A DNA stretch of 64,000 nt from Crocosphaera sp. UHCC 0190 (lineage in GTDB: Bacteria; Cyanobacteriota; Cyanobacteriia; Cyanobacteriales; Microcystaceae). The notes beneath the pieces are model-generated. The model was given only the letters and a program-made list of their open reading frames with translations, did no database searches and had not been told where the DNA came from. Position numbers and translations under genes: made by a program. Positions 9,063 to 49,007 of this stretch are shown in pieces (the stretch's first letter is position 1; every line of letters begins with the position of its first letter). Where the stretch lies: assembly GCF_034932065.1 (NCBI RefSeq), contig NZ_JAYGHP010000012.1, forward strand, positions 1 to 64,000. Direction: 5' to 3'.

Positions 9063-9493
9063 GGAAAATTAGGAAAAAATAACTTAACGGCCCCTGTCCC
9101 AATAGCTAAAACAAAGCCCACAACAACCGAACGATTAATAAATTCTTGAGTGTCTAAGCGTTTGCCAATTCCCTCTACTTTAGCATCTAATGTTTTGACA
9201 TCCCCTGTTAAAGAAATTACGTCTTTTTGGAGGTGATCAACTTTCTCATCAAGTATTTCAAATTTTGCATCAAACTTCTCATCAAGCTTATCTAGTTTAG
9301 TTTCAAATTTGTTTTCAAGCTGCTCAAATTTAGTTTCAAATTTGTCATCAAGCTGCTCAAATTTTGCCTCAACTTTGTTTTCAAGCTGCTCAAATTTATC
9401 CTCAAATTTGTCATCAAGCTTATCTAATTTACTGTTAATTTGCCCTAAAATTTCTTCTAGAGAGTAAGTGACGGTTATCGGAGTTTGACTCAT
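9056..9493 (-). CDS. Hendecad-repeat coiled-coil protein with C-terminal membrane anchor
   Basis: The 145-residue product is built of consecutive 11-residue units from residue 22 onward: KLDKLDDKFED, KFEQLENKVEA, KFEQLDDKFET, KFEQLENKFET, KLDKLDEKFDA, KFEILDEKVDH, then two weaker units. An 11-residue period is typical of right-handed coiled coils. A hydrophobic helix (about 118-137) near the end should anchor it in a membrane. The 33-bp DNA unit is visible as repeats at about 9245-9430, so copy number may change by recombination. Similar short Lys/Glu-rich coiled-coil membrane proteins are common and unassigned in cyanobacteria. No function is proposed. Confidence 0.8.
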   Translation of the reverse strand: MSQTPITVTYSLEEILGQINSKLDKLDDKFEDKFEQLENKVEAKFEQLDDKFETKFEQLENKFETKLDKLDEKFDAKFEILDEKVDHLQKDVISLTGDVKTLDAKVEGIGKRLDTQEFINRSVVVGFVLAIGTGAVKLFFPNFPH

Positions 9494-9532
9494 GATATGA
9501 CATTCCTATTTAGGTATAAAATTTGTCTGATT

Positions 9533-10993
9533 TTAGGAACAAGCCTGATTATAAACTTTTTCATTAGCCTTGACTGATGTAAAAAAGTCTACAATTGGAC
9601 GGGGATAATTAACCCCAATAATTACATTATAGCGTTTTTGTTCTTCTGGGGATAGTTGCCAAGGTTCATGAATTTTATCTCCTGGAATGGCTTTTAATTC
9701 TGGCAACCAATGTTTTAAATAGTCACCTTTAGGATCATAATCTTTTGATTGTTTGGTAATATTAAAATAGCGAAATCCTCTGGCATCATTACCTACTCCT
9801 GCCGTATAATTCCAGTTACCATAATTACTACAAACATCATAATCAATTAATAATGACTCAAACCATTCTGCCCCCATTATCCAATTAATTCCTAAGTTTT
9901 TAGTCAAGAAACTAGCAACATTTTGTCTACCTCTGTTTGACATAAATCCTGTGGCGGATAATTCTCTCATATTGGCATCAACTAAAGGATAACCTGTCTT
10001 TCCTTCTTGCCATAATCTGAATCTTTCTGAGTCTTCTTTCCAAGGTATTTCTAATCCTTGTAACCCTGATGGATAAAATATTTTATTACCATGTTTGGCA
10101 CAAATAAACCGGAAATAATCACGCCAAAGTAATTCAAAAATGAGCCAATAAGTTGAATTATTTTTAACTCTTTCTTCTTCATATTTTTGTACTTCTTCGT
10201 AAATATAACGAGGGGACAGACAACCCTTTGCTAACCAAGGAGATAATTTAGAAGAATAGTCTGTCCCTAACATTCCATTTCTGGTTTCTTTGTAATTTTT
10301 AAGACAATTATTATCCCAAAAATAGTTATTTACCCGTTTAATACCTTCAGTTTCTCCTCCTTTAAAATTCAAGACACTTCTGGTATCAAAAATAGAATTT
10401 TGTAAGCCTAATTCTTCAATACTTGGAATTTTACCTAAATCTATTTCAGGTAATTTTGGTAATGTTTTAGGTGTGGGAAAGGTAGGATTTATAGTAGAAT
10501 TTTTTTCTACTTTTTTACGAAAATTGGTAAAGAGTTCAGGAATTTGATCAACTTTAAATGGTAAATTATCCCAATGATATAAGGTTGAACCCCAAAACCC
10601 TTGAAACTTAACCCCAAGACTTGATAAGTTTTGCTGCAAAGCTTTTTCTATGTTGATTTCTTCTGCGGTAACTTCTTGATGAAAATAAACAGTATCAATA
10701 GATAATTCTTTCACTAATTGCGGGATTATGTTTTCAGGATATCCTTTTCTAATAATTAAATCACTACCAGCTTTTTGTAGAGATTTTTTTAAATTGTCAA
10801 GACTTTCCAATAAAAATTTACCTCGAAAATTGCCTGTTTTTGGAAAGCCACAAGAAGTCGTTTGAAATTGTCTAGTATCAAAACAATAAAAAGGAATAAT
10901 TAGGGCTTTTTCTTGAATTGCTTGACCTAAGGCTTCATGATCGTGAATTCGTAAATCATTACGATACCAAATTAAAATAGTTTTGTTAGACAT
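9533..10993 (-). CDS. DASH-type cryptochrome/photolyase
   Basis: The 486-residue protein starts with ILIWYRNDLRIHDHEAL, the antenna (photolyase) domain. It ends with the FAD-binding helical domain carrying WNYTAGVGNDARGFRYFNITKQ and DYDPKGDYLKHWLPEL. The length and these motifs match cry-DASH of cyanobacteria and plants, flavoproteins that repair cyclobutane dimers mainly in single-stranded DNA and may have a signalling role. The start at 10993 (MSNKTIL) is the normal family start. It is transcribed divergently from the FAD monooxygenase gene; about 110 bp separate the likely starts and should hold both promoters. Confidence 0.93.
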   Translation of the reverse strand: MSNKTILIWYRNDLRIHDHEALGQAIQEKALIIPFYCFDTRQFQTTSCGFPKTGNFRGKFLLESLDNLKKSLQKAGSDLIIRKGYPENIIPQLVKELSIDTVYFHQEVTAEEINIEKALQQNLSSLGVKFQGFWGSTLYHWDNLPFKVDQIPELFTNFRKKVEKNSTINPTFPTPKTLPKLPEIDLGKIPSIEELGLQNSIFDTRSVLNFKGGETEGIKRVNNYFWDNNCLKNYKETRNGMLGTDYSSKLSPWLAKGCLSPRYIYEEVQKYEEERVKNNSTYWLIFELLWRDYFRFICAKHGNKIFYPSGLQGLEIPWKEDSERFRLWQEGKTGYPLVDANMRELSATGFMSNRGRQNVASFLTKNLGINWIMGAEWFESLLIDYDVCSNYGNWNYTAGVGNDARGFRYFNITKQSKDYDPKGDYLKHWLPELKAIPGDKIHEPWQLSPEEQKRYNVIIGVNYPRPIVDFFTSVKANEKVYNQACS

Positions 10994-42231: not shown

Positions 42232-42960
42232 ATGCAGTTACCAACATTTCAGGAAATTTGGCAAGATAGTTTACAATGGCAACCAACTCAAACACAATTA
42301 GACCAATGGGAGCAGTTATATCAAGAAATAATCTTAATTAATCGTCAAATTAATTTAACTCGTATTACGGAACCTCAAGACTTTTGGGAAAAACACCTTT
42401 GGGACTCTTTAGCTGGAGTTATCGGGCTAGATTTTTTGCGATATAAAGATTCATTAAAAGTGATTGACATTGGTACAGGAGGTGGTTTTCCTGGTCTTCC
42501 TATTGCCATTAGTTTTCCTCATTGGCAGTTTACATTACTTGATTCTACTCGCAAAAAAATCAATGTAATTAACTTATTTTTAGAAGCCTTAAAATTAAAA
42601 AATTGTACCACATTTATCGGCCGAGCAGAAGATGTTGGACATTTACCAGAGCATAGAGAAATGTATGATTTAGCCTTAATTCGTGCAGTGGGGGAACCCT
42701 CTGTTTGTGCTGAATATGTATTACCCTTTCTCAAACTAGGAGGAATAGGAGTATTATATCGGGGAAATTGGCAAACGGAAGAAGAATTAAACTTAAAAGC
42801 AGCCTTGAAACAATTAGGGGGAAAATTTATCTTAGTTAAACAGTTTAACACTCCTTTAACTCAAAGTATACGTCACTTTATTTATGTTAAAAAAGTAGCA
42901 GAAACCCCTTATCAATTTCCTCGTCCCGTTGGTATTCCAAAACAACAACCTTTAGGCTAA
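42232..42960 (+). CDS. rsmG: 16S rRNA (guanine527-N7)-methyltransferase RsmG
   Basis: The 242-residue enzyme (GidB) has INLTRITEPQDFWEKHLWDSL near residue 40 and the SAM site DIGTGGGFPGLPIAI, then TLLDSTRKKINVI, GRAEDVGH and RAVGEPSVCAEY. It methylates G527 of 16S rRNA with SAM; its loss gives low-level streptomycin resistance in other bacteria. The C-terminal RPVGIPKQQPLG is as in the family. It lies 24 bp after pacL and is probably read through from it. Confidence 0.95.
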   Translation: MQLPTFQEIWQDSLQWQPTQTQLDQWEQLYQEIILINRQINLTRITEPQDFWEKHLWDSLAGVIGLDFLRYKDSLKVIDIGTGGGFPGLPIAISFPHWQFTLLDSTRKKINVINLFLEALKLKNCTTFIGRAEDVGHLPEHREMYDLALIRAVGEPSVCAEYVLPFLKLGGIGVLYRGNWQTEEELNLKAALKQLGGKFILVKQFNTPLTQSIRHFIYVKKVAETPYQFPRPVGIPKQQPLG

Positions 42961-42992
42961 AGAAGCGATCAATCTTATTTTTATAGATCCCA

Positions 42993-43595
42993 CTACCAAA
43001 CTTTTGGTTGAAACTCAGCACTGTTAAGAATAGCGACATTTTCTCCCGCTTGTGCCAACACAAATAAACCTTGACGATAAGCATATTTATCTGCACCTTC
43101 TTCTATTTCTATCCCTGCCACCGCCCCATATACTTGCTTGTCGTTATACTCAGGGAAGAATTGTCGAAATTCTCTTAAATCATCGATCAATTCTTTAACA
43201 TCATCCACACCTAAACTACTTTTAACTTCCACTACTAAAACATGGTTTTCATTGGTTACTAAGACATCAATTTCTAAACTTTTACCATCCAGACGTTTTT
43301 TGACTCGTTGACTAACTTGATGAACGGGAATACCTCTATTTAAAAATAAGGTTTCACAAGCAGGAGCCACCATATTTTCCACAAAACGACCCCATTTACC
43401 ACCTAAAGCCCCTATTTGTTTACTAACTTTTTTAACTTCCTTGCTAGTCTCTTGAATTTGGCGATCAGTTTCTTGAATTTGGCGATCAGTTTCTTGAAAG
43501 CGTCTTTCTGTTTTTTGAAAGCGTCGCTCTGTTTCTTTTTGGGCTGTTGCTAATTCAGCTAATAATTGCCATACATCATCTGCGGTGGTTGACAT
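42993..43595 (-). CDS. Coiled-coil plus PD-(D/E)XK nuclease-fold protein (DUF3782-like)
   Basis: The 200-residue protein begins with heptad repeats (ERRFQKT, ERRFQET, DRQIQET, DRQIQET, then SKEVKKV; about residues 23-60) encoded by 21-bp DNA repeats. A nuclease-fold domain follows with GRFVENMVAPA, LEIDVLVTNENHVLVVEVKSSLG (the D and ExK motif), and YGAVAGIEIEEGADKYAYRQGL. This layout is common in cyanobacteria and unassigned; it may be a DNA-binding or defunct nuclease. The minus-strand gene converges with rsmG over a 32-bp gap. Confidence 0.8.
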   Translation of the reverse strand: MSTTADDVWQLLAELATAQKETERRFQKTERRFQETDRQIQETDRQIQETSKEVKKVSKQIGALGGKWGRFVENMVAPACETLFLNRGIPVHQVSQRVKKRLDGKSLEIDVLVTNENHVLVVEVKSSLGVDDVKELIDDLREFRQFFPEYNDKQVYGAVAGIEIEEGADKYAYRQGLFVLAQAGENVAILNSAEFQPKVW

Positions 43596-43665
43596 AATTT
43601 TTCTTGTTGCAAGCTTTTTAGTTCATTCATTATATCTGGTTTATGTTTCAGACCGCGCGGTTTAA

Positions 43666-43780
43666 GTTTCTAGTTCAACACCTAACAGTTGATCTATATT
43701 AAACCCGCGTAGGCGGGTTTTGTCTGTATAGCTTAACCCTTAAGGGTTGAAGCGGGGTCAACGGCCGTTGACCCCTAGGA
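43666..43780. repeat. Composite palindromic repeat block
   Basis: The gap 43596-43981 (386 bp) has no gene but holds several palindromes. AAACCCGC/GCGGGTTT with a GTAG loop (43701-43720) is followed by TGTCT and may terminate transcription. CCCTTAAGGG lies near 43738. A perfect 22-bp palindrome with arms GGGG/CCCC and core TCAACGGCCGTTGA is at 43754-43775, a member of the GTAGGGG family. Confidence 0.7.
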
Positions 43781-43940
43781 AAACCTATTTTTAAAATGAG
43801 TCCCGAAAATTCATAAGTTTTGCTAAACTTGCCATGAGATTTTCCTCAAAAAAATAATGATAAACCTCTTAAATATAAAGGATATGTCTAATTATGTCTA
43901 ACTGACAACAAGGGGGGAAAATGTTATTTCTTATAGTTTT

Positions 43941-43963
43941 GGACGCAAGCATTGCGCCCCTAC
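43941..43963. repeat. Worn GTAGGGG-family palindrome
   Basis: GGACGCAAGC and ATTGCGCCCC, then TAC, form an imperfect hairpin with a CGCAA/TTGCG core, 19 bp after the racemase stop codon. Confidence 0.55.
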
Positions 43964-43981
43964 GAAAACGTATTTTAAAGC

Positions 43982-45067
43982 TTAAACGGCCACGGGACTA
44001 TTAGAATGTATGAATTGCTTTTTAATAAAAGGAGAAGTCATCGCTGCGAGAAGGCTACCGTAATCCATGTTAAAATTCACTTCATCTCCTACTTGTAAAT
44101 TTTGGTTTTTGCTGTCGAGAATAAGATGATCGCTACTAGAGCCTAATATTTCTAGTTTATTATGAGATTGCAAACCAGATACTAGAATATCCTGCCTTCC
44201 CAAAGCAATAATCGCTCTTTGGCGAATTCCTCGATCTGCGAAACTAGGAATATTTCCAAAAGCATCTTGACAGATATCTCCAAATGGTAGAGATGGCTTG
44301 ATCTTGGACTCAATAACTTCGGCAATGAGTTGGAAAGCATGGGTATGTAAACCGGGAATGGCTTTTCTATTAACAGTTTCGCAACCCAAAAAAATTGATT
44401 CACCCAAACGAAGATTATTAATCTTACCCACATCTTGAGTCGATTTATACCAGTCATAATTTGCCGAATTTCCACCAGAAATTATGTCTAAACTAATCTG
44501 AAACTCTTTTTCAATCATCTCAACCAATTCAGATAGTTTATTCATATTGGCATTATCTGGTTTGACTCCACCATAACAAGCTAAATTGCAGCCAATACCA
44601 ACAATTTTTATATGGGATAAAGAAAGGGTTTCCCTCATAAATTGAGAAAGATCTCCAGGAAGTATTCCTTCACGCAAATCACCCAATTCCACCATCAAAA
44701 TTACCTGATGATATTTATTATATGCCCTTGCATAATAGGAAAGTTCCTTAAGAGTTTCTATCTCAGTATTGAGGCTAATATCTACAGTTTTAACAATAGA
44801 TTCAGCCCGACTTAAAGGAGTACGTAGCAGAACAAACTTAGTTAATATCCCCGCATTTTTCATTTTTTGAATGTTTTCAATACGAGAATCTGCAATAAAT
44901 TTCACTCCCCCTTGAATCATTGCCTTAACAATAGAAGGCTCTCCTAATACTGCTTTAGAAACTCCCATTAAAGAAATCCCTTTTTGCCCATAAAGTTTTG
45001 ATAATATTCGAGCATTATCCTGTATTTGGGATAGGGCAATTTCTATCCTTGGCATGAACGATTTCAT
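43982..45067 (-). CDS. Alanine/ornithine-racemase-family PLP enzyme (fold III)
   Basis: The 361-residue protein has RIEIALSQIQDNARIL and then GVSKAVLGEP, with Lys38 as the PLP Schiff-base lysine. VILMVELGDLREG, VGIGCNLACYGGVKPD (in the family the residues around the phosphate/substrate pocket), ISGGNSANYDW and LRLGESIFLG follow. These match the Orr/YhfX branch and not the classical Alr enzymes. The C-terminal beta domain is present. The substrate is not predictable by eye. It lies 23 bp after the DUF1611 gene, so the two form an operon. ATG at 45055 (MPRIEIAL) is an equally good start. Confidence 0.85.
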   Translation of the reverse strand: MKSFMPRIEIALSQIQDNARILSKLYGQKGISLMGVSKAVLGEPSIVKAMIQGGVKFIADSRIENIQKMKNAGILTKFVLLRTPLSRAESIVKTVDISLNTEIETLKELSYYARAYNKYHQVILMVELGDLREGILPGDLSQFMRETLSLSHIKIVGIGCNLACYGGVKPDNANMNKLSELVEMIEKEFQISLDIISGGNSANYDWYKSTQDVGKINNLRLGESIFLGCETVNRKAIPGLHTHAFQLIAEVIESKIKPSLPFGDICQDAFGNIPSFADRGIRQRAIIALGRQDILVSGLQSHNKLEILGSSSDHLILDSKNQNLQVGDEVNFNMDYGSLLAAMTSPFIKKQFIHSNSPVAV

Positions 45068-45090
45068 TGATTTTTTCTAGACAATTATGT

Positions 45091-46212
45091 CTACCTCTTG
45101 GCCAAGACAGGAAGTTTTTCTACATTTTCCTGCTTGATTTTTTGACTAAGTTTCGGAAAATGATGGGCTAAAGTTTGAACAAGTTTTTGACATCCATGAC
45201 TCAACACATCGGTTGTTGGTAACTTAAACTGCTTTTCATAATCTTCTATGATGGTCAAAATTTCTTCGTTTGCGAGGTTTTCATGGCTTAAGGTAATCGC
45301 CATTACACTAGATTGAGAAATCGCTTCAATCAGTTGAATTTCACTCTCAACAGTAGGCATGATTAAATGCGGAAAATCACACCGAAATTCTCTCCCAGGT
45401 GGGTGCTGAAGAATAATTCCATCAGGCATACTTCCTTTTAAGATACCCAGAGAACTCATAAAAGCGGGATGACTAACAGCACTTTGTCCCTCAACTAAAA
45501 TGATGTCAGGACTTTCTTTCTCAAACGCTTGAATAACAGAGTTTTCGATTTCACCAATCACAAACTGGGAAATAAGCGCATCGATAGAAACACCATATCT
45601 TGCTCCTTGCATCAAGCTAGTTTGACCTGTTGCTACTAGAATTGACTTTATGCCAAGATTATTTAAAGCCTTATTAAGTTCTATCGCGGTGGTCATTTTT
45701 CCGCAAGCACAATCGGTACCAAGTATGGCGATGACAGGAATATTTACCTTAGATATTTGACCCGTAAAGACGTGCAAATCTTCTAATTTGGGCGGTTTTC
45801 TAATGTCTTTAATTTCGATATTATGCTTGTCAGCCATATTGACAAACTCTTGATCTTCGGAGAAAAACTCATGAAGACCATTAATGATATCCATGCCTTT
45901 TTCCATAGCTTCTAAGATGAGAAACCTCTCTTCTGGGGATAGACAAGCTTCTAAGGGAGCCTTTCCATAAATATAACAGTTTGGCATCTCTGAAAGTTTA
46001 GCCAAAGCCTCATCTAAATTGGCAAAAATAGGAATACCATTCTTTTTTCCTCCTAATTCTTTCCCTGCATCTTTGCCAGCTAAGGAACTATCGATCACCC
46101 CAACAATTGTATAAATTTCAGAGTGACGAATCAAGCCTGCGGCAGTTTTTCCGTCTACTAAACCAAATTGATTTTCACAGTAAACTAAAGCTGTTTTTTT
46201 GAAAATTGTCAT
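45091..46212 (-). CDS. DUF1611 P-loop protein, DgcN-like (candidate D-amino-acid N-acetyltransferase)
   Basis: The 373-residue protein has a Rossmann-like N-terminal part (KTAAGLIRHSE, VGVIDSSLAGKDAG) and a P-loop C-terminal part with ILGTDCACGKMTTAIEL near residue 165, VATGQTSLMQGARYGV, ILVEGQSAVSHPAFMSS and ILQHPPGREFRCDFP. This is DUF1611. In marine bacteria a member called DgcN N-acetylates D-glutamate, and a partner epimerase DgcA inverts it. Here the partner is a PLP racemase-family protein. It is the first gene of a two-gene minus-strand operon with an AT-rich 284-bp promoter region divergent to the DUF1517 gene. Confidence 0.82.
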   Translation of the reverse strand: MTIFKKTALVYCENQFGLVDGKTAAGLIRHSEIYTIVGVIDSSLAGKDAGKELGGKKNGIPIFANLDEALAKLSEMPNCYIYGKAPLEACLSPEERFLILEAMEKGMDIINGLHEFFSEDQEFVNMADKHNIEIKDIRKPPKLEDLHVFTGQISKVNIPVIAILGTDCACGKMTTAIELNKALNNLGIKSILVATGQTSLMQGARYGVSIDALISQFVIGEIENSVIQAFEKESPDIILVEGQSAVSHPAFMSSLGILKGSMPDGIILQHPPGREFRCDFPHLIMPTVESEIQLIEAISQSSVMAITLSHENLANEEILTIIEDYEKQFKLPTTDVLSHGCQKLVQTLAHHFPKLSQKIKQENVEKLPVLAKR

Positions 46213-46447
46213 TCAGTGAATTTCCTATAATTTATTCTCAAAGATTAAATTTGTATTTATTTGCTGTAATTGTAACTTACCTTACACTGAAATAAAACTG
46301 AATGTTCTCAAAACTTAACTGTGCAAAATCTTAAACTAAGGATTCAATATTTTGTAAAATTTTTCAGACTCCATGAGACTATCAAATAGGATTTTCAATG
46401 GCTATAAAAATGGGTTTATTTAATAAAAAACAACGCAATGGATTATT

Positions 46448-46474
46448 TTGACTTGTTTTGGGTTACATTATAAT
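46448..46474 (+). promoter_or_regulatory. Promoter of the DUF1517 gene
   Basis: TATAAT at 46469-46474 is a consensus -10 box 22 bp before the ATG. TTGACT at 46448 gives a 15-bp spacer, and TTTTGA at 46446 gives 17 bp. The leader would be very short. Confidence 0.55.
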
Positions 46475-46496
46475 GAGAGCTTTTCAAGCATAAATT

Positions 46497-47096
46497 ATGA
46501 GTTCTTGGCGCGATCGCATTAACAAATTCACCGGAAAAACTCGTTTTGTGGTCTGTCGTATTTTCCTACACCTTGCAGGAGATGAGATTGCTCCCGTCTT
46601 AGGAGTCTTAAACCATGCAGCGCGAGAAGCTATCGATGCAGAAGGAGATTTGCAGGTACTCGGAGAGGGTTTAGTTGAAATTTGTCAAAATCTTCTACAA
46701 ATGAGCCTTTACTGGCAATCTGCCGCCAATGAGGGGGATGTTTTTTGGGAGGAGGGAGAAGCAGGAGACTATGTTACTGAACTGTTTACCGACTCGGCCC
46801 AACGTTACCTCAGTGCAGTTATTACTGAAGATGAGGAGGACAACACCCCTTTATCTTTCCCTGTTACCCGTAATTTAGTGGTGATGATCACCGTTGCTGT
46901 AACCGGAGAAGTACCAGAATTAGAAACAAACTTGGCCGATAGAAACGCCTTAGAAGACGGTTTAAAAGCCTTAATTAACCTGCATTATCAAAACCGTTTA
47001 CAAGGGATTCAAGTTCATTATTCCCCGGCGCAATTTGGGGATGAACTAACCAACGATCAATTATTACTCAATTTTTCAGAACTGATTCCTTTATAA
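46497..47096 (+). CDS. DUF1517-like protein
   Basis: The 199-residue protein is rich in acidic residues and has NLVVMITVAVTGEVPELE near 127-145 and LQGIQVHYSPAQFGDELTNDQLL near the end. The strand-plus-tail pattern VMxTVAxxG and the final P-x-x-xxD-x-L resemble the DUF1517 family of cyanobacteria and chloroplasts. No signal peptide or membrane helix is evident. It is followed by a lipoprotein gene 12 bp later. Function unknown. Confidence 0.65.
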   Translation: MSSWRDRINKFTGKTRFVVCRIFLHLAGDEIAPVLGVLNHAAREAIDAEGDLQVLGEGLVEICQNLLQMSLYWQSAANEGDVFWEEGEAGDYVTELFTDSAQRYLSAVITEDEEDNTPLSFPVTRNLVVMITVAVTGEVPELETNLADRNALEDGLKALINLHYQNRLQGIQVHYSPAQFGDELTNDQLLLNFSELIPL

Positions 47097-47108
47097 CTCA
47101 TTAAGCCT

Positions 47109-47966
47109 ATGATTCGCAAATTGATTGCTATTTTCTTATCCCTAGCACTCTGCTGGACTACCGTGGCCTGTAGTTCTCCCACCTCAACCCAGTCTCAATC
47201 TTCTAATAATACTAGCGCGAGTGTTACTCCCCCAAATCAAGTCAAAGAGGGCCGTTACCCTGTTCAACAAGCGGAATATGATGATACAGAGGGAACTTAT
47301 ACCCTAATGTTGCTCAATACTCCCCCAGGAAAACCCCCCACTTACCGCACCCAGAATTTACAAATGGCCAGACTGACTGAGGAACAGGTAAAAAATGGGG
47401 AAAGCACCTATTTAGAGGTGACGGGAGAGCAAGCAGTCATGCACCTGACAGAAGACTTCAAAATAGAATATGTTCATAATGTCACAGAAACCCAAACTAA
47501 CCCCCAAACCGGACAACCTCAAACCGTTGTCGTGCGTCGGGAGTCTAATTTTTGGGCCCCCTTTGCGGGTGCATTAGCGGGTCAAGCATTGGGGAGTTTA
47601 TTATTTACCCCACAATACTATTTTCCTCCCATGTATCAACCAGGGGGAATAATGAGAGGTTATGGAGGTTATGGGAATACCTATACCCAAGCGAGTCAAA
47701 GCTATCAAAGTAAATATAACGCGCCTCCCCCAGCCGTGAAAAATAAGCAAACCTTACGGACAACGGGAAATCTTAACCGCTCTTCTTCAAGTTCCGCAAC
47801 CTCTCGTCAAAAATCATCTCCCAACGCCCCTAAGTCTAGTGGTTCTGGGTTTGGTAGTAGTAATTTGAAAAATTCAGGAACCTCTCGCTCTAATGTTCAA
47901 AGAAATTCAGGGTTTGGTAGTAGTAAGGGTTCCAGTTCTCGTTCTCGCAGTTCTCGAAGACGTTAA
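47109..47966 (+). CDS. Putative lipoprotein with Ser/Arg-rich tail
   Basis: The 285-residue protein starts MIRKLIAIFLSLALCW with TTVACSS, a type II signal peptide with the lipidated cysteine near residue 21. The -3 residue is Thr, not Leu, so the lipobox is slightly irregular. The body has YPVQQAEYDDTEGTYTLMLL and a Gly/Tyr-rich segment (QPGGIMRGYGGYG). The last 70 residues are almost only Ser, Arg, Gly and Asn (GSSKGSSSRSRSSRRR), a low-complexity tail. It is likely in the outer or cytoplasmic membrane leaflet facing the periplasm. Translational coupling to the DUF1517 gene is probable. Confidence 0.75.
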   Translation: MIRKLIAIFLSLALCWTTVACSSPTSTQSQSSNNTSASVTPPNQVKEGRYPVQQAEYDDTEGTYTLMLLNTPPGKPPTYRTQNLQMARLTEEQVKNGESTYLEVTGEQAVMHLTEDFKIEYVHNVTETQTNPQTGQPQTVVVRRESNFWAPFAGALAGQALGSLLFTPQYYFPPMYQPGGIMRGYGGYGNTYTQASQSYQSKYNAPPPAVKNKQTLRTTGNLNRSSSSSATSRQKSSPNAPKSSGSGFGSSNLKNSGTSRSNVQRNSGFGSSKGSSSRSRSSRRR

Positions 47967-47988
47967 ACAAAAATCATCAAAATAACCG

Positions 47989-48015
47989 AATGGCGCAATC
48001 ATGCGCCATTTTTTT
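47989..48015 (+). terminator. Rho-independent terminator after the lipoprotein gene
   Basis: AATGGCGC (47989-47996) pairs with GCGCCATT (48003-48010) across a 6-nt loop, followed by a run of seven T. The left arm region is also A-rich upstream, so weak bidirectional action for the convergent msrP gene is possible. Confidence 0.92.
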
Positions 48016-48023
48016 GAGGATAT

Positions 48024-49007
48024 CTAACCGTACAAATTCGCAACATAGTCTCCGTAGCCATTGTAAGGTAGGGTTTCCTTAATGTCCCAAGAGAGGCCTG
48101 GCCCTTGACTAATAAACTTTTCAGTCGCTTGTGACCAACGGGGGTGAGGTTTATCCGGGTTAACATTGGCCTCAAAATCATACTCATTCGGATCAATGGT
48201 ATTCCAATAAGTTGCTGGTTTTTCCGCCATAAATTCAATTTTAACCAGGGATTTGGCCCCTTTAAACCCATATTTCCAAGGAATTACCATCCGTAACGGT
48301 GCGCCATGTTGTTTCGGTAAATCATGGCCATAGATTCCTAGAGCAAAAAAAGCTAACTCATTAGCCATTTCTTCAATGCGTAACCCTTCTTGATAGGGCC
48401 AAGGTAAAGTTCCCAGATGAAAACCAGGGCCAGTGGTAATTTCTGGATCATAAAAAGACGTAAATCTGACAAATTTGGCTTGACTGGTAGGTTCAACCGC
48501 TTGCATTAGGGCCTTCATGGGGAACCCAACCCAAGGTAATACCATTGACCAAGCTTCGACACAACGAAAGCGATAAATTCTTTCTTCTAGGGGAAATTTC
48601 CGTTTAAGATCGTCTAAATCATAGGTTTGAGGATTTTTGACTAATCCCATCACTTCAACTTTCCAATTCTCTATGGGTAATTTTTGAGCTTTCAGCCAAA
48701 TATTTTTCGTGCCACCAAACTCATAAAAATTGTTATATTGTCCAGCTAAAATCTCTTTAGTGATGGGACGATCAACTTGATTAAAAACGGGAGAGGGTTG
48801 AATCTTTGAAAGTTTGGGAAGTTGGAGACTATTTTCTAAAGCTGTTTGAGAGGAGGATTTTTGACAACCACTTAAGGGAATTAAACTGGCTGCAATTCCT
48901 GTCCCAATTAAACTTTTTAGAAAGCGACGACGGTTATAATAAACCGTCTCAGGAGTGCTTTGGTTTTCACTAATTTTCCAAGACGGAGGAACACGAATTA
49001 AAGTCAT
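48024..49007 (-). CDS. msrP: Protein-methionine-sulfoxide reductase catalytic subunit MsrP
   Basis: The 327-residue molybdenum protein (YedY) has a twin-arginine signal NRRRFLKSLIGTG at 25-37 followed by a hydrophobic segment and SGC. The molybdopterin domain contains IYRFRCVEAWSMVLPWVG, where Cys149 is the molybdenum ligand. GIYGHDLPKQHGAPLRMVIPWKYGFK and HPRWSQATEK are the family C-terminal motifs. It repairs oxidised methionines in periplasmic proteins. The membrane partner MsrQ is not adjacent; the small membrane protein next to it is much too short to replace it. Confidence 0.93.
   Translation of the reverse strand: MTLIRVPPSWKISENQSTPETVYYNRRRFLKSLIGTGIAASLIPLSGCQKSSSQTALENSLQLPKLSKIQPSPVFNQVDRPITKEILAGQYNNFYEFGGTKNIWLKAQKLPIENWKVEVMGLVKNPQTYDLDDLKRKFPLEERIYRFRCVEAWSMVLPWVGFPMKALMQAVEPTSQAKFVRFTSFYDPEITTGPGFHLGTLPWPYQEGLRIEEMANELAFFALGIYGHDLPKQHGAPLRMVIPWKYGFKGAKSLVKIEFMAEKPATYWNTIDPNEYDFEANVNPDKPHPRWSQATEKFISQGPGLSWDIKETLPYNGYGDYVANLYG

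Follow-up and report, generated by a model that had tools for sequence, protein, structure and literature searches.

A DUF1611 protein and an ornithine racemase-family enzyme are encoded as a conserved gene pair in Crocosphaera sp. UHCC 0190 and in diverse bacteria and archaea

In the cyanobacterium Crocosphaera sp. UHCC 0190, a gene for a DUF1611 protein is directly followed by one for a pyridoxal 5'-phosphate (PLP)-dependent racemase of the Orr (ornithine racemase) family. The pair lies in the first 64,000 nucleotides of contig NZ_JAYGHP010000012.1, the whole of the stretch that was analyzed and here called the window. Among the best 80 of at least 578 related racemase loci, a DUF1611 gene stands upstream of the racemase gene on the same strand in 75, and it adjoins the racemase gene in all 13 distinct cyanobacterial genomes in which we found one. 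Given these two counts, the pairing is far beyond chance, and we hold it almost certain that the linkage is a real conserved unit. We tentatively propose that the pair is a self-contained D-amino acid module, in which racemization is followed by amide formation; taken as a whole, this proposal is plausible but falls somewhat short of probable.

DgcN is reportedly a D-Glu N-acetyltransferase whose partner, DgcA, is an N-acetyl-D-Glu racemase. The function of DUF1611 proteins is known for that one branch only. Described here is a second branch, which has a constant partner of another enzyme class and is found in 18 named phyla.

Results

The gene pair in the window

Both genes of the original prediction are present on one strand, with the spacing it gave:

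45091..46212, minus strand: DUF1611 protein, 373 residues, first gene of the pair, with a PF17396 Rossmann-like N-terminal part and a PF07755 P-loop C-terminal part
43982..45067, minus strand: PLP-dependent racemase, Orr family, 361 residues, second gene of the pair
45068..45090, minus strand: gap of 23 bp separating the DUF1611 and racemase genes, the junction read in the sequence
46213..46496, no strand assigned: intergenic stretch up to a divergent DUF1517 gene, which would carry the promoter of the pair

The racemase matches PF01168 (E 1.6e-20, Pfam) and the NCBIfam Orr model NF040742 (E 3.2e-121), the latter with 404.7 bits, below the cut-off of 480. Its second Met is residue 5, and the true start may lie a few codons further in. 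The DUF1611 protein matches PF07755 (E 1.5e-67, 227.3 bits against a gathering score of 25) and PF17396 (E 4.1e-21, 75.6 bits against 22.6), and with 155.8 bits it stays below the cut-off of 480 for the NCBIfam DgcN model NF041892. The positive controls scored 493.4 bits (DgcN of Pseudoalteromonas CF6-2, L129) and 549.6 bits (Orr of a complete ornithine cluster, L111) with their respective models. A weak match of the DUF1611 protein (45091-46212) to TIGR04066, a clostridial "peptide maturation system" family, was also seen (35.3 bits, cut-off 200). RefSeq already labels such genes "DUF1611 domain-containing" and "alanine/ornithine racemase family".

That the unit holds nothing else is borne out for the window. 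Downstream, the nearest same-strand open reading frame (ORF) matching a family (42993-43595, DUF3782/NERD) ends 386 bp from the pair, and the upstream neighbor (46497-47096, DUF1517) is divergent. The ORF list and Pfam gave no transporter, dehydrogenase, deaminase or oxidase in the window unit, no ornithine-degradation genes were found among the neighbors at 42232-49007, and neither an M15 peptidase nor an ATP-grasp ligase lies beside the pair. A scan for consensus promoters gave no more matches than shuffled sequences did (11 against a mean of 10.0), and none of its matches lies in 46213..46496.

The predicted structure of the DUF1611 protein (predicted local distance difference test, pLDDT, 90) matches 2obn (Z 40.8), 2g0t (Z 38.0) and DgcN 7xrj (Z 32.9; root-mean-square deviation, rmsd, 3.8; 322 aligned) along almost its entire length. 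Taken by itself, the P-loop half resembles CTP synthetase, BioD, MinD, HypB and cyclic diphosphoglycerate synthetase at Z of about 13-14.5, and these matches show a shared fold only. The racemase model (pLDDT 94) has the complete alanine-racemase fold (residues 1-358, Z 29.9, rmsd 3.3, 331 aligned), and by PF01168 and the model the enzyme is of fold type III, with an N-terminal racemase-domain barrel and a C-terminal beta domain. A PLP enzyme thus stands beside a DgcN relative in the place of the enolase-type DgcA, as had been predicted.

Linkage across bacteria and archaea

The 80 loci come from a racemase-alignment scan that took one genome per species; beyond them, linkage is known from plasmid loci only. 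The DUF1611 gene is within 150 bp of the racemase gene in 74 loci, while in L032 a distance of 1556 bp and another ORF separate the two. The 75 linked loci belong to 18 named phyla, plus 3 records naming none; 70 are bacterial, 3 archaeal and 2 unassigned. By record title the carriers include autotrophs such as Nitrospina, Nitrosomonas and cyanobacteria. Unlike in the window, the DUF1611 and racemase genes overlap in many relatives; taking the longest ORFs, they do so by exactly 4 bases in 18 of the 75 loci, and the same overlap appears in the RefSeq annotation of Vibrio and Phaeobacter plasmids. These overlaps suggest coupled translation, although the count is based on longest ORFs. Of the five loci lacking DUF1611, four have an ATP-grasp enzyme in its place and one (L084) begins at a contig end.

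Linkage in cyanobacteria

For cyanobacteria we used 291 genomes drawn evenly from the phylum and 50 genomes of the window's family, 2 genomes being common to both samples. The racemase was found in 7 of the 291 and 8 of the 50, and a window-like DUF1611 gene lies directly beside it in the same 7 and adjoins it in the same 8. Three cases are imperfect: DUF1611 falls in two matches in G272, the racemase falls in two matches in G312, and only the C-terminal part of DUF1611 is seen in G174. The racemase is rare and scattered in cyanobacteria, yet always with DUF1611 where found. Lack of conservation in related genomes, one of the two outcomes named as fatal to the operon reading, did not occur: the racemase was never found without its neighbor (13 of 13 genomes). 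What speaks against the reading in its simplest form is that the pair is missing from 42 of the 50 family genomes and 284 of the 291 phylum genomes.

Each of the six other cyanobacterial loci has different flanks. A constant third gene was considered and rejected, as GspS, SPFH or DUF neighbors recur in few loci only; DUF3134 (cluster 7) is near the pair in 5 loci and a P-II-like protein (cluster 17) in 3 and in one further case in G070. The small DUF3134 protein adjoins the pair in Pleurocapsa-type and Microcystis loci (L059:2687-2926; L061, L064, L065, L066).

A second DUF1611 protein of the ordinary type, at about 30% identity, is encoded in 12 of the 13 paired genomes (in G209 none was found at the threshold), which indicates that the pair is not a duplicate of a DgcA/DgcN-like set. 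In the window genome (G000) this second copy is on contig C10 (set L025:7291-8364 and 9313-10344). Like the window pair, the contig C10 set has a DUF1611 gene and an isomerase gene on one strand; unlike it, the isomerase is an MR_MLE enolase-type epimerase, with the DUF1611 gene following 948 bp after it, and the two DUF1611 proteins are 29% identical. Both C10 proteins are below the DgcN and DgcA cut-offs. A single genome thus carries both kinds of DUF1611 set, and the prediction of a PLP enzyme instead of DgcA applies to the window pair, with a separate DgcA/DgcN-like pair also present.

Plasmid loci as outside controls

Searching plasmids by tblastn, with the racemase as query, returned 21 records, 16 of which were examined. 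Seven have DUF1611 (four Vibrio, Phaeobacter, Ruegeria and Aliiroseovarius), one (L123) has a truncated racemase without DUF1611, and DUF1611 is absent from the fetched flanks of the other eight (ornithine-cluster Orr, Ilyobacter Orr, rhizobial, Salmonella and other racemases). In two of the records (L113:5992-7779, L124:5992-7779) a rhizobial-type Orr-family racemase is fused to an arginase domain and lies beside genes for 5-guanidino-2-oxopentanoate decarboxylase, a D-amino acid dehydrogenase and RidA, which looks like an arginine route through D-arginine. For the Orr and arginase-fusion clusters we infer D-ornithine or D-arginine as the compound.

Phylogeny and conserved residues

Quick, midpoint-rooted trees were built, with long branches flagged. 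In the racemase tree the linked sequences, four from the loci with a ligase and G174 form a branch of 93 rows (support 100), which includes all seven plasmid racemases with DUF1611. The eight DUF1611-free plasmid racemases fall outside, so that linkage to DUF1611 follows descent rather than the Orr family at large. Clustering of the window racemase with unlinked catabolic enzymes, which had been named as fatal to the operon reading, was not what we found, as it belongs to this separate branch. In the DUF1611 tree (73 rows), 62 racemase-linked proteins lie in a 65-row branch (support 99); DgcN, the second copy of the window genome and haloarchaeal, Streptomyces and Bosea proteins lie outside it. 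The distinct branches of both partners are consistent with the predicted separate D-amino acid pathway; with carriers in 18 named phyla, it is not a phototroph feature as had been suggested.

The comparison with DgcN proposed in the original prediction gave 29 positions common to the linked and eight other DUF1611 proteins including DgcN, among them the P-loop GTD...GK, TGQ, EGQ, H248 and R274. Another 16 positions are kept in the linked proteins and absent from those eight, including D20, Y34, Q202, Y206, E221, Q269, D279, H310 and E311. We read this pattern of the same core and a changed periphery as pointing to chemistry of the same type, carried out on a different substrate, and the gain of acidic residues (D20, E221, D279, E311) would suit a basic side chain. 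In the racemase, K38, just after the first strand, is kept at 95% or more in the 93 branch members and in all seven outsiders compared; by analogy it is presumably the PLP lysine.

Genes that replace or accompany DUF1611

The four loci with an ATP-grasp gene in the place of DUF1611 (4 of 80; L080, L090, L091, L102) encode D-Ala-D-Ala-ligase-like enzymes. Two of them were compared with Pfam and match Dala_Dala_lig_C (95.7 and 97.3 bits, cut-off 24); one was compared with NCBIfam and falls under every ligase cut-off shown. Upstream in L090 are an opine-dehydrogenase-family gene and a gene for a 662-residue protein without a Pfam match.

A VanX-like M15 peptidase is encoded in 14 of the 75 linked loci, directly downstream of the racemase in 12 and fused to its C-terminus in 2 (L073:5421-7199, L074:5998-7737). 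One free and one fused protein checked against Pfam scored 36.8 and 29.5 bits (cut-off 27), and the M15 proteins are below the cut-offs of the NCBIfam VanX and DdpX-type models. Seven aligned VanX-like proteins have SMH(S/A)TGGA(V/I)D and EYWHF motifs, and we take SxHxxGxAxD and ExWH to be the metal-binding and catalytic motifs of such peptidases. In L098 the gene for a D-aminoacylase-type amidohydrolase overlaps the racemase end; a similar one is found beside a haloarchaeal DUF1611 gene with two dipeptide epimerases. Neither kind of third gene was found in the window or the cyanobacterial loci examined, 61 of the 75 loci have no VanX-like gene, and none of the four ligase loci has one. The pair is therefore a two-gene unit in the window, as predicted, while in other lineages a VanX-like gene joins it. 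A search for VanX as a hidden cyanobacterial partner gave no information on linkage: the VanX-like query matched, at weak E-values, 120 of the 291 genomes, whether they carry the pair or not; a distant M15 homologue is encoded elsewhere in the window genome (C14, E 9.6e-8).

Among 139 of the 150 listed neighbor proteins (loci L070 and up only; 11 short or uncertain ORFs left out), no common metabolic theme was found. The commonest Pfam families were short AraC type (6), Band_7 (4) and phage integrase (4).

Discussion

A proposed order of reactions

Under the proposed scheme, the Orr-family enzyme would interconvert the L and D enantiomers of a free amino acid, as its family and fold suggest, with a substrate more likely basic (of the ornithine, lysine or arginine type) than glutamate. 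The DUF1611 protein would then make an amide of the D form, most likely an N-acyl-D-amino acid made from an acyl-CoA, judging by its homology to DgcN and by the enzymes that replace or follow it. Amide formation would pull racemization towards the D form; the amide would be split again, in some lineages, by a hydrolase of the VanX-like or D-aminoacylase type. PLP racemases form a Schiff base with the amino group of their substrate. Because they need a free α-amino group, racemization would have to precede acylation if the amide is on that group, and for the same reason the DgcN-DgcA order could not be copied if DUF1611 acts there.

A D-amino acid amide as the compound fits both the ligase-like replacement and the amide hydrolases encoded in third place. 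A basic substrate class is a weaker guess by analogy, made because the nearest characterized relative, Orr, is 44% identical and one rhizobial relative carries a fused arginase domain. Synthesis is favored over salvage as the window unit has no transporter or oxidase and carriers include autotrophs by name. Product and direction were inference in the original prediction and are still so. While the linkage is observed, the substrate, the acyl donor and the direction given here are those that the sequences suggest.

A wider version of the proposal is that this is an old, mobile pathway of both prokaryotic domains and 18 phyla or more, autotrophs included, which makes a D-amide (an N-acyl-D-amino acid or a dipeptide with a D-residue) as a stress or storage compound, DUF1611 being a P-loop amide-former that replaces ATP-grasp ligases. 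With all its parts, this version is speculative and rather unlikely.

Several points weigh against the proposed module. Three proteins without a linked racemase are on the linked DUF1611 branch: a Vibrio coralliilyticus copy that has lost its racemase partner (L131), a long-branched Vibrio nigripulchritudo copy (L127) and a second copy in L096 (L096_second). The protein distances of the two partners correlate (r 0.899, 60 loci; none of 2000 permutations as high), which is expected from shared inheritance alone. A hydrolase beside an amide-former would undo the amide and fits salvage as well as synthesis. As the P-loop half of the model is like the ATP-using CTP synthetase and BioD, a carboxylic acid together with ATP may serve as donor instead of an acyl-CoA. 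Finally, with both model cut-offs missed, neither DgcN nor Orr activity would be transferable as such to the window proteins.

Alternative roles for the pair

A serious rival, although on balance unlikely, is salvage, in which VanX-like or D-aminoacylase enzymes would release D-amino acids from peptides, the racemase would convert them to the L form and DUF1611 would acetylate the D-amino acid as DgcN does D-glutamate. The third genes do encode amide hydrolases, and both DgcN and the true Orr, whose cluster was verified by model matches, serve degradation. However, the racemase alone would be enough for such a role, and an acylated amino acid would block the PLP enzyme. The missing transporter and oxidase also speak against salvage, as do the 61 loci without a hydrolase, and only 2 of the 139 scanned neighbors match amino acid permease families. 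Alternatively, DUF1611 may be an ATP-dependent ligase, the racemase and ligase together giving a dipeptide with a D-residue that VanX-like enzymes cleave. VanC-type operons follow the same logic with their set of racemase, ligase and D,D-dipeptidase. Consistent with this idea, a Dala_Dala_lig_C enzyme can hold the place of DUF1611, VanX-like partners or fusions recur, and the P-loop half, with its Rossmann-plus-P-loop core kept, resembles CTP synthetase and BioD at Z of about 14. Yet many ATPases and GTPases that share the fold but are otherwise unrelated reach such a Z, the one named activity in the family is N-acetyltransfer (7xrj title; NCBIfam DgcN), and a VanX-like gene is absent from all four ligase loci. 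We consider a ligase role improbable, if worth keeping in mind.

Two simpler explanations have much less in their favor. Were the enzyme a plain ornithine racemase for ornithine breakdown with DUF1611 as a passenger, this would account for its being 44% identical to the Orr encoded in a complete ord-ortA-ortB-oraE-GlmL-related-orr cluster. A passenger would not persist in 75 of 80 loci, though, and no ornithine-cluster genes flank the window pair; the score below the Orr cut-off, well under that of the true Orr, and the separate racemase branch make this role very unlikely. Less likely still, to the point of being hardly credible, is the DgcN-DgcA route for D-glutamate with the PLP enzyme replacing DgcA on N-acetyl-D-glutamate. 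The same family does come first in the operon, with 33% identity to DgcN over 276 columns, but a PLP racemase requires a free amino group, the genome already has a DgcA/DgcN-like pair, and the 16 positions of the linked set are absent from DgcN and the seven others compared.

Relation to known systems

The pair is of the DUF1611-plus-isomerase type with a different class of isomerase. It is not DgcN-DgcA itself, because the window proteins miss the DgcN and Orr model cut-offs. In common with the DgcN-DgcA operon of Pseudoalteromonas, DUF1611 is the first gene and an isomerase the second, and the DUF1611 proteins share the overall fold and the 29 conserved positions with the P-loop. In contrast, the second enzyme of the window is PLP-dependent rather than enolase-type, its DUF1611 protein is on a separate branch and no DgcR is next to the pair. 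DgcN-DgcA also acetylates first and then epimerizes the N-acetyl compound with an enolase-type enzyme, the reverse of the order proposed here. Orr of the ornithine cluster of Acetoanaerobium (formerly Clostridium sticklandii) belongs to the same family as the window racemase and is similar over its whole length, with K38 and a GDLREG stretch in common, but it is encoded together with ord, ortA, ortB, oraE and a GlmL-related gene instead of DUF1611, and it is on another branch. VanC-type sets resemble the unit of other lineages, in which a racemase is combined with a presumed amide-former and with a VanX-like peptidase. They differ from the window pair, which has neither a VanX-like neighbor nor a ligase and no glycopeptide tie, and DUF1611 is unrelated to ATP-grasp ligases.

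According to the text available from one paper, acidic D-amino acids and their amides have a route of irreversible racemization in which dgcN is the key gene (PMC12363236), and that from another treats the functions of DgcN and DgcA as known (PMC10845958). No paper on a pair of DUF1611 and a PLP racemase was found among the open-licence papers searched, where absence is weak evidence.

To call such genes "DgcN" or "ornithine racemase" because of their similarity would be misleading. The pair gives a sharp and cheap prediction on two proteins. If true, it would add a D-amino acid product in cyanobacteria and nitrite oxidizers, in which D-amino acids outside the cell wall have hardly been studied.

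Genomic surroundings of the pair

Across 5 loci from distant lineages (L022:7644-8501, L059:6390-7232, L103:8539-9414, L118, L120), the SPFH/Band 7 model matches 7 proteins, a number that stands without a background comparison. On marine plasmids with the pair (L134, L135, L136, L118) or with DUF1611 alone (L131), GroES/GroEL, Hsp20, HflK/HflC or NhaA genes are nearby. This setting hints at stress islands, with no background count to set it against. Over the roughly 40 kb read on three plasmids, the pair is near chaperonin genes in Phaeobacter and in Vibrio europaeus, the latter with two Hsp20 genes, and near HflK, HflC and NhaA in Vibrio parahaemolyticus. HflK/HflC genes are also nearby in Ruegeria and V. 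coralliilyticus.

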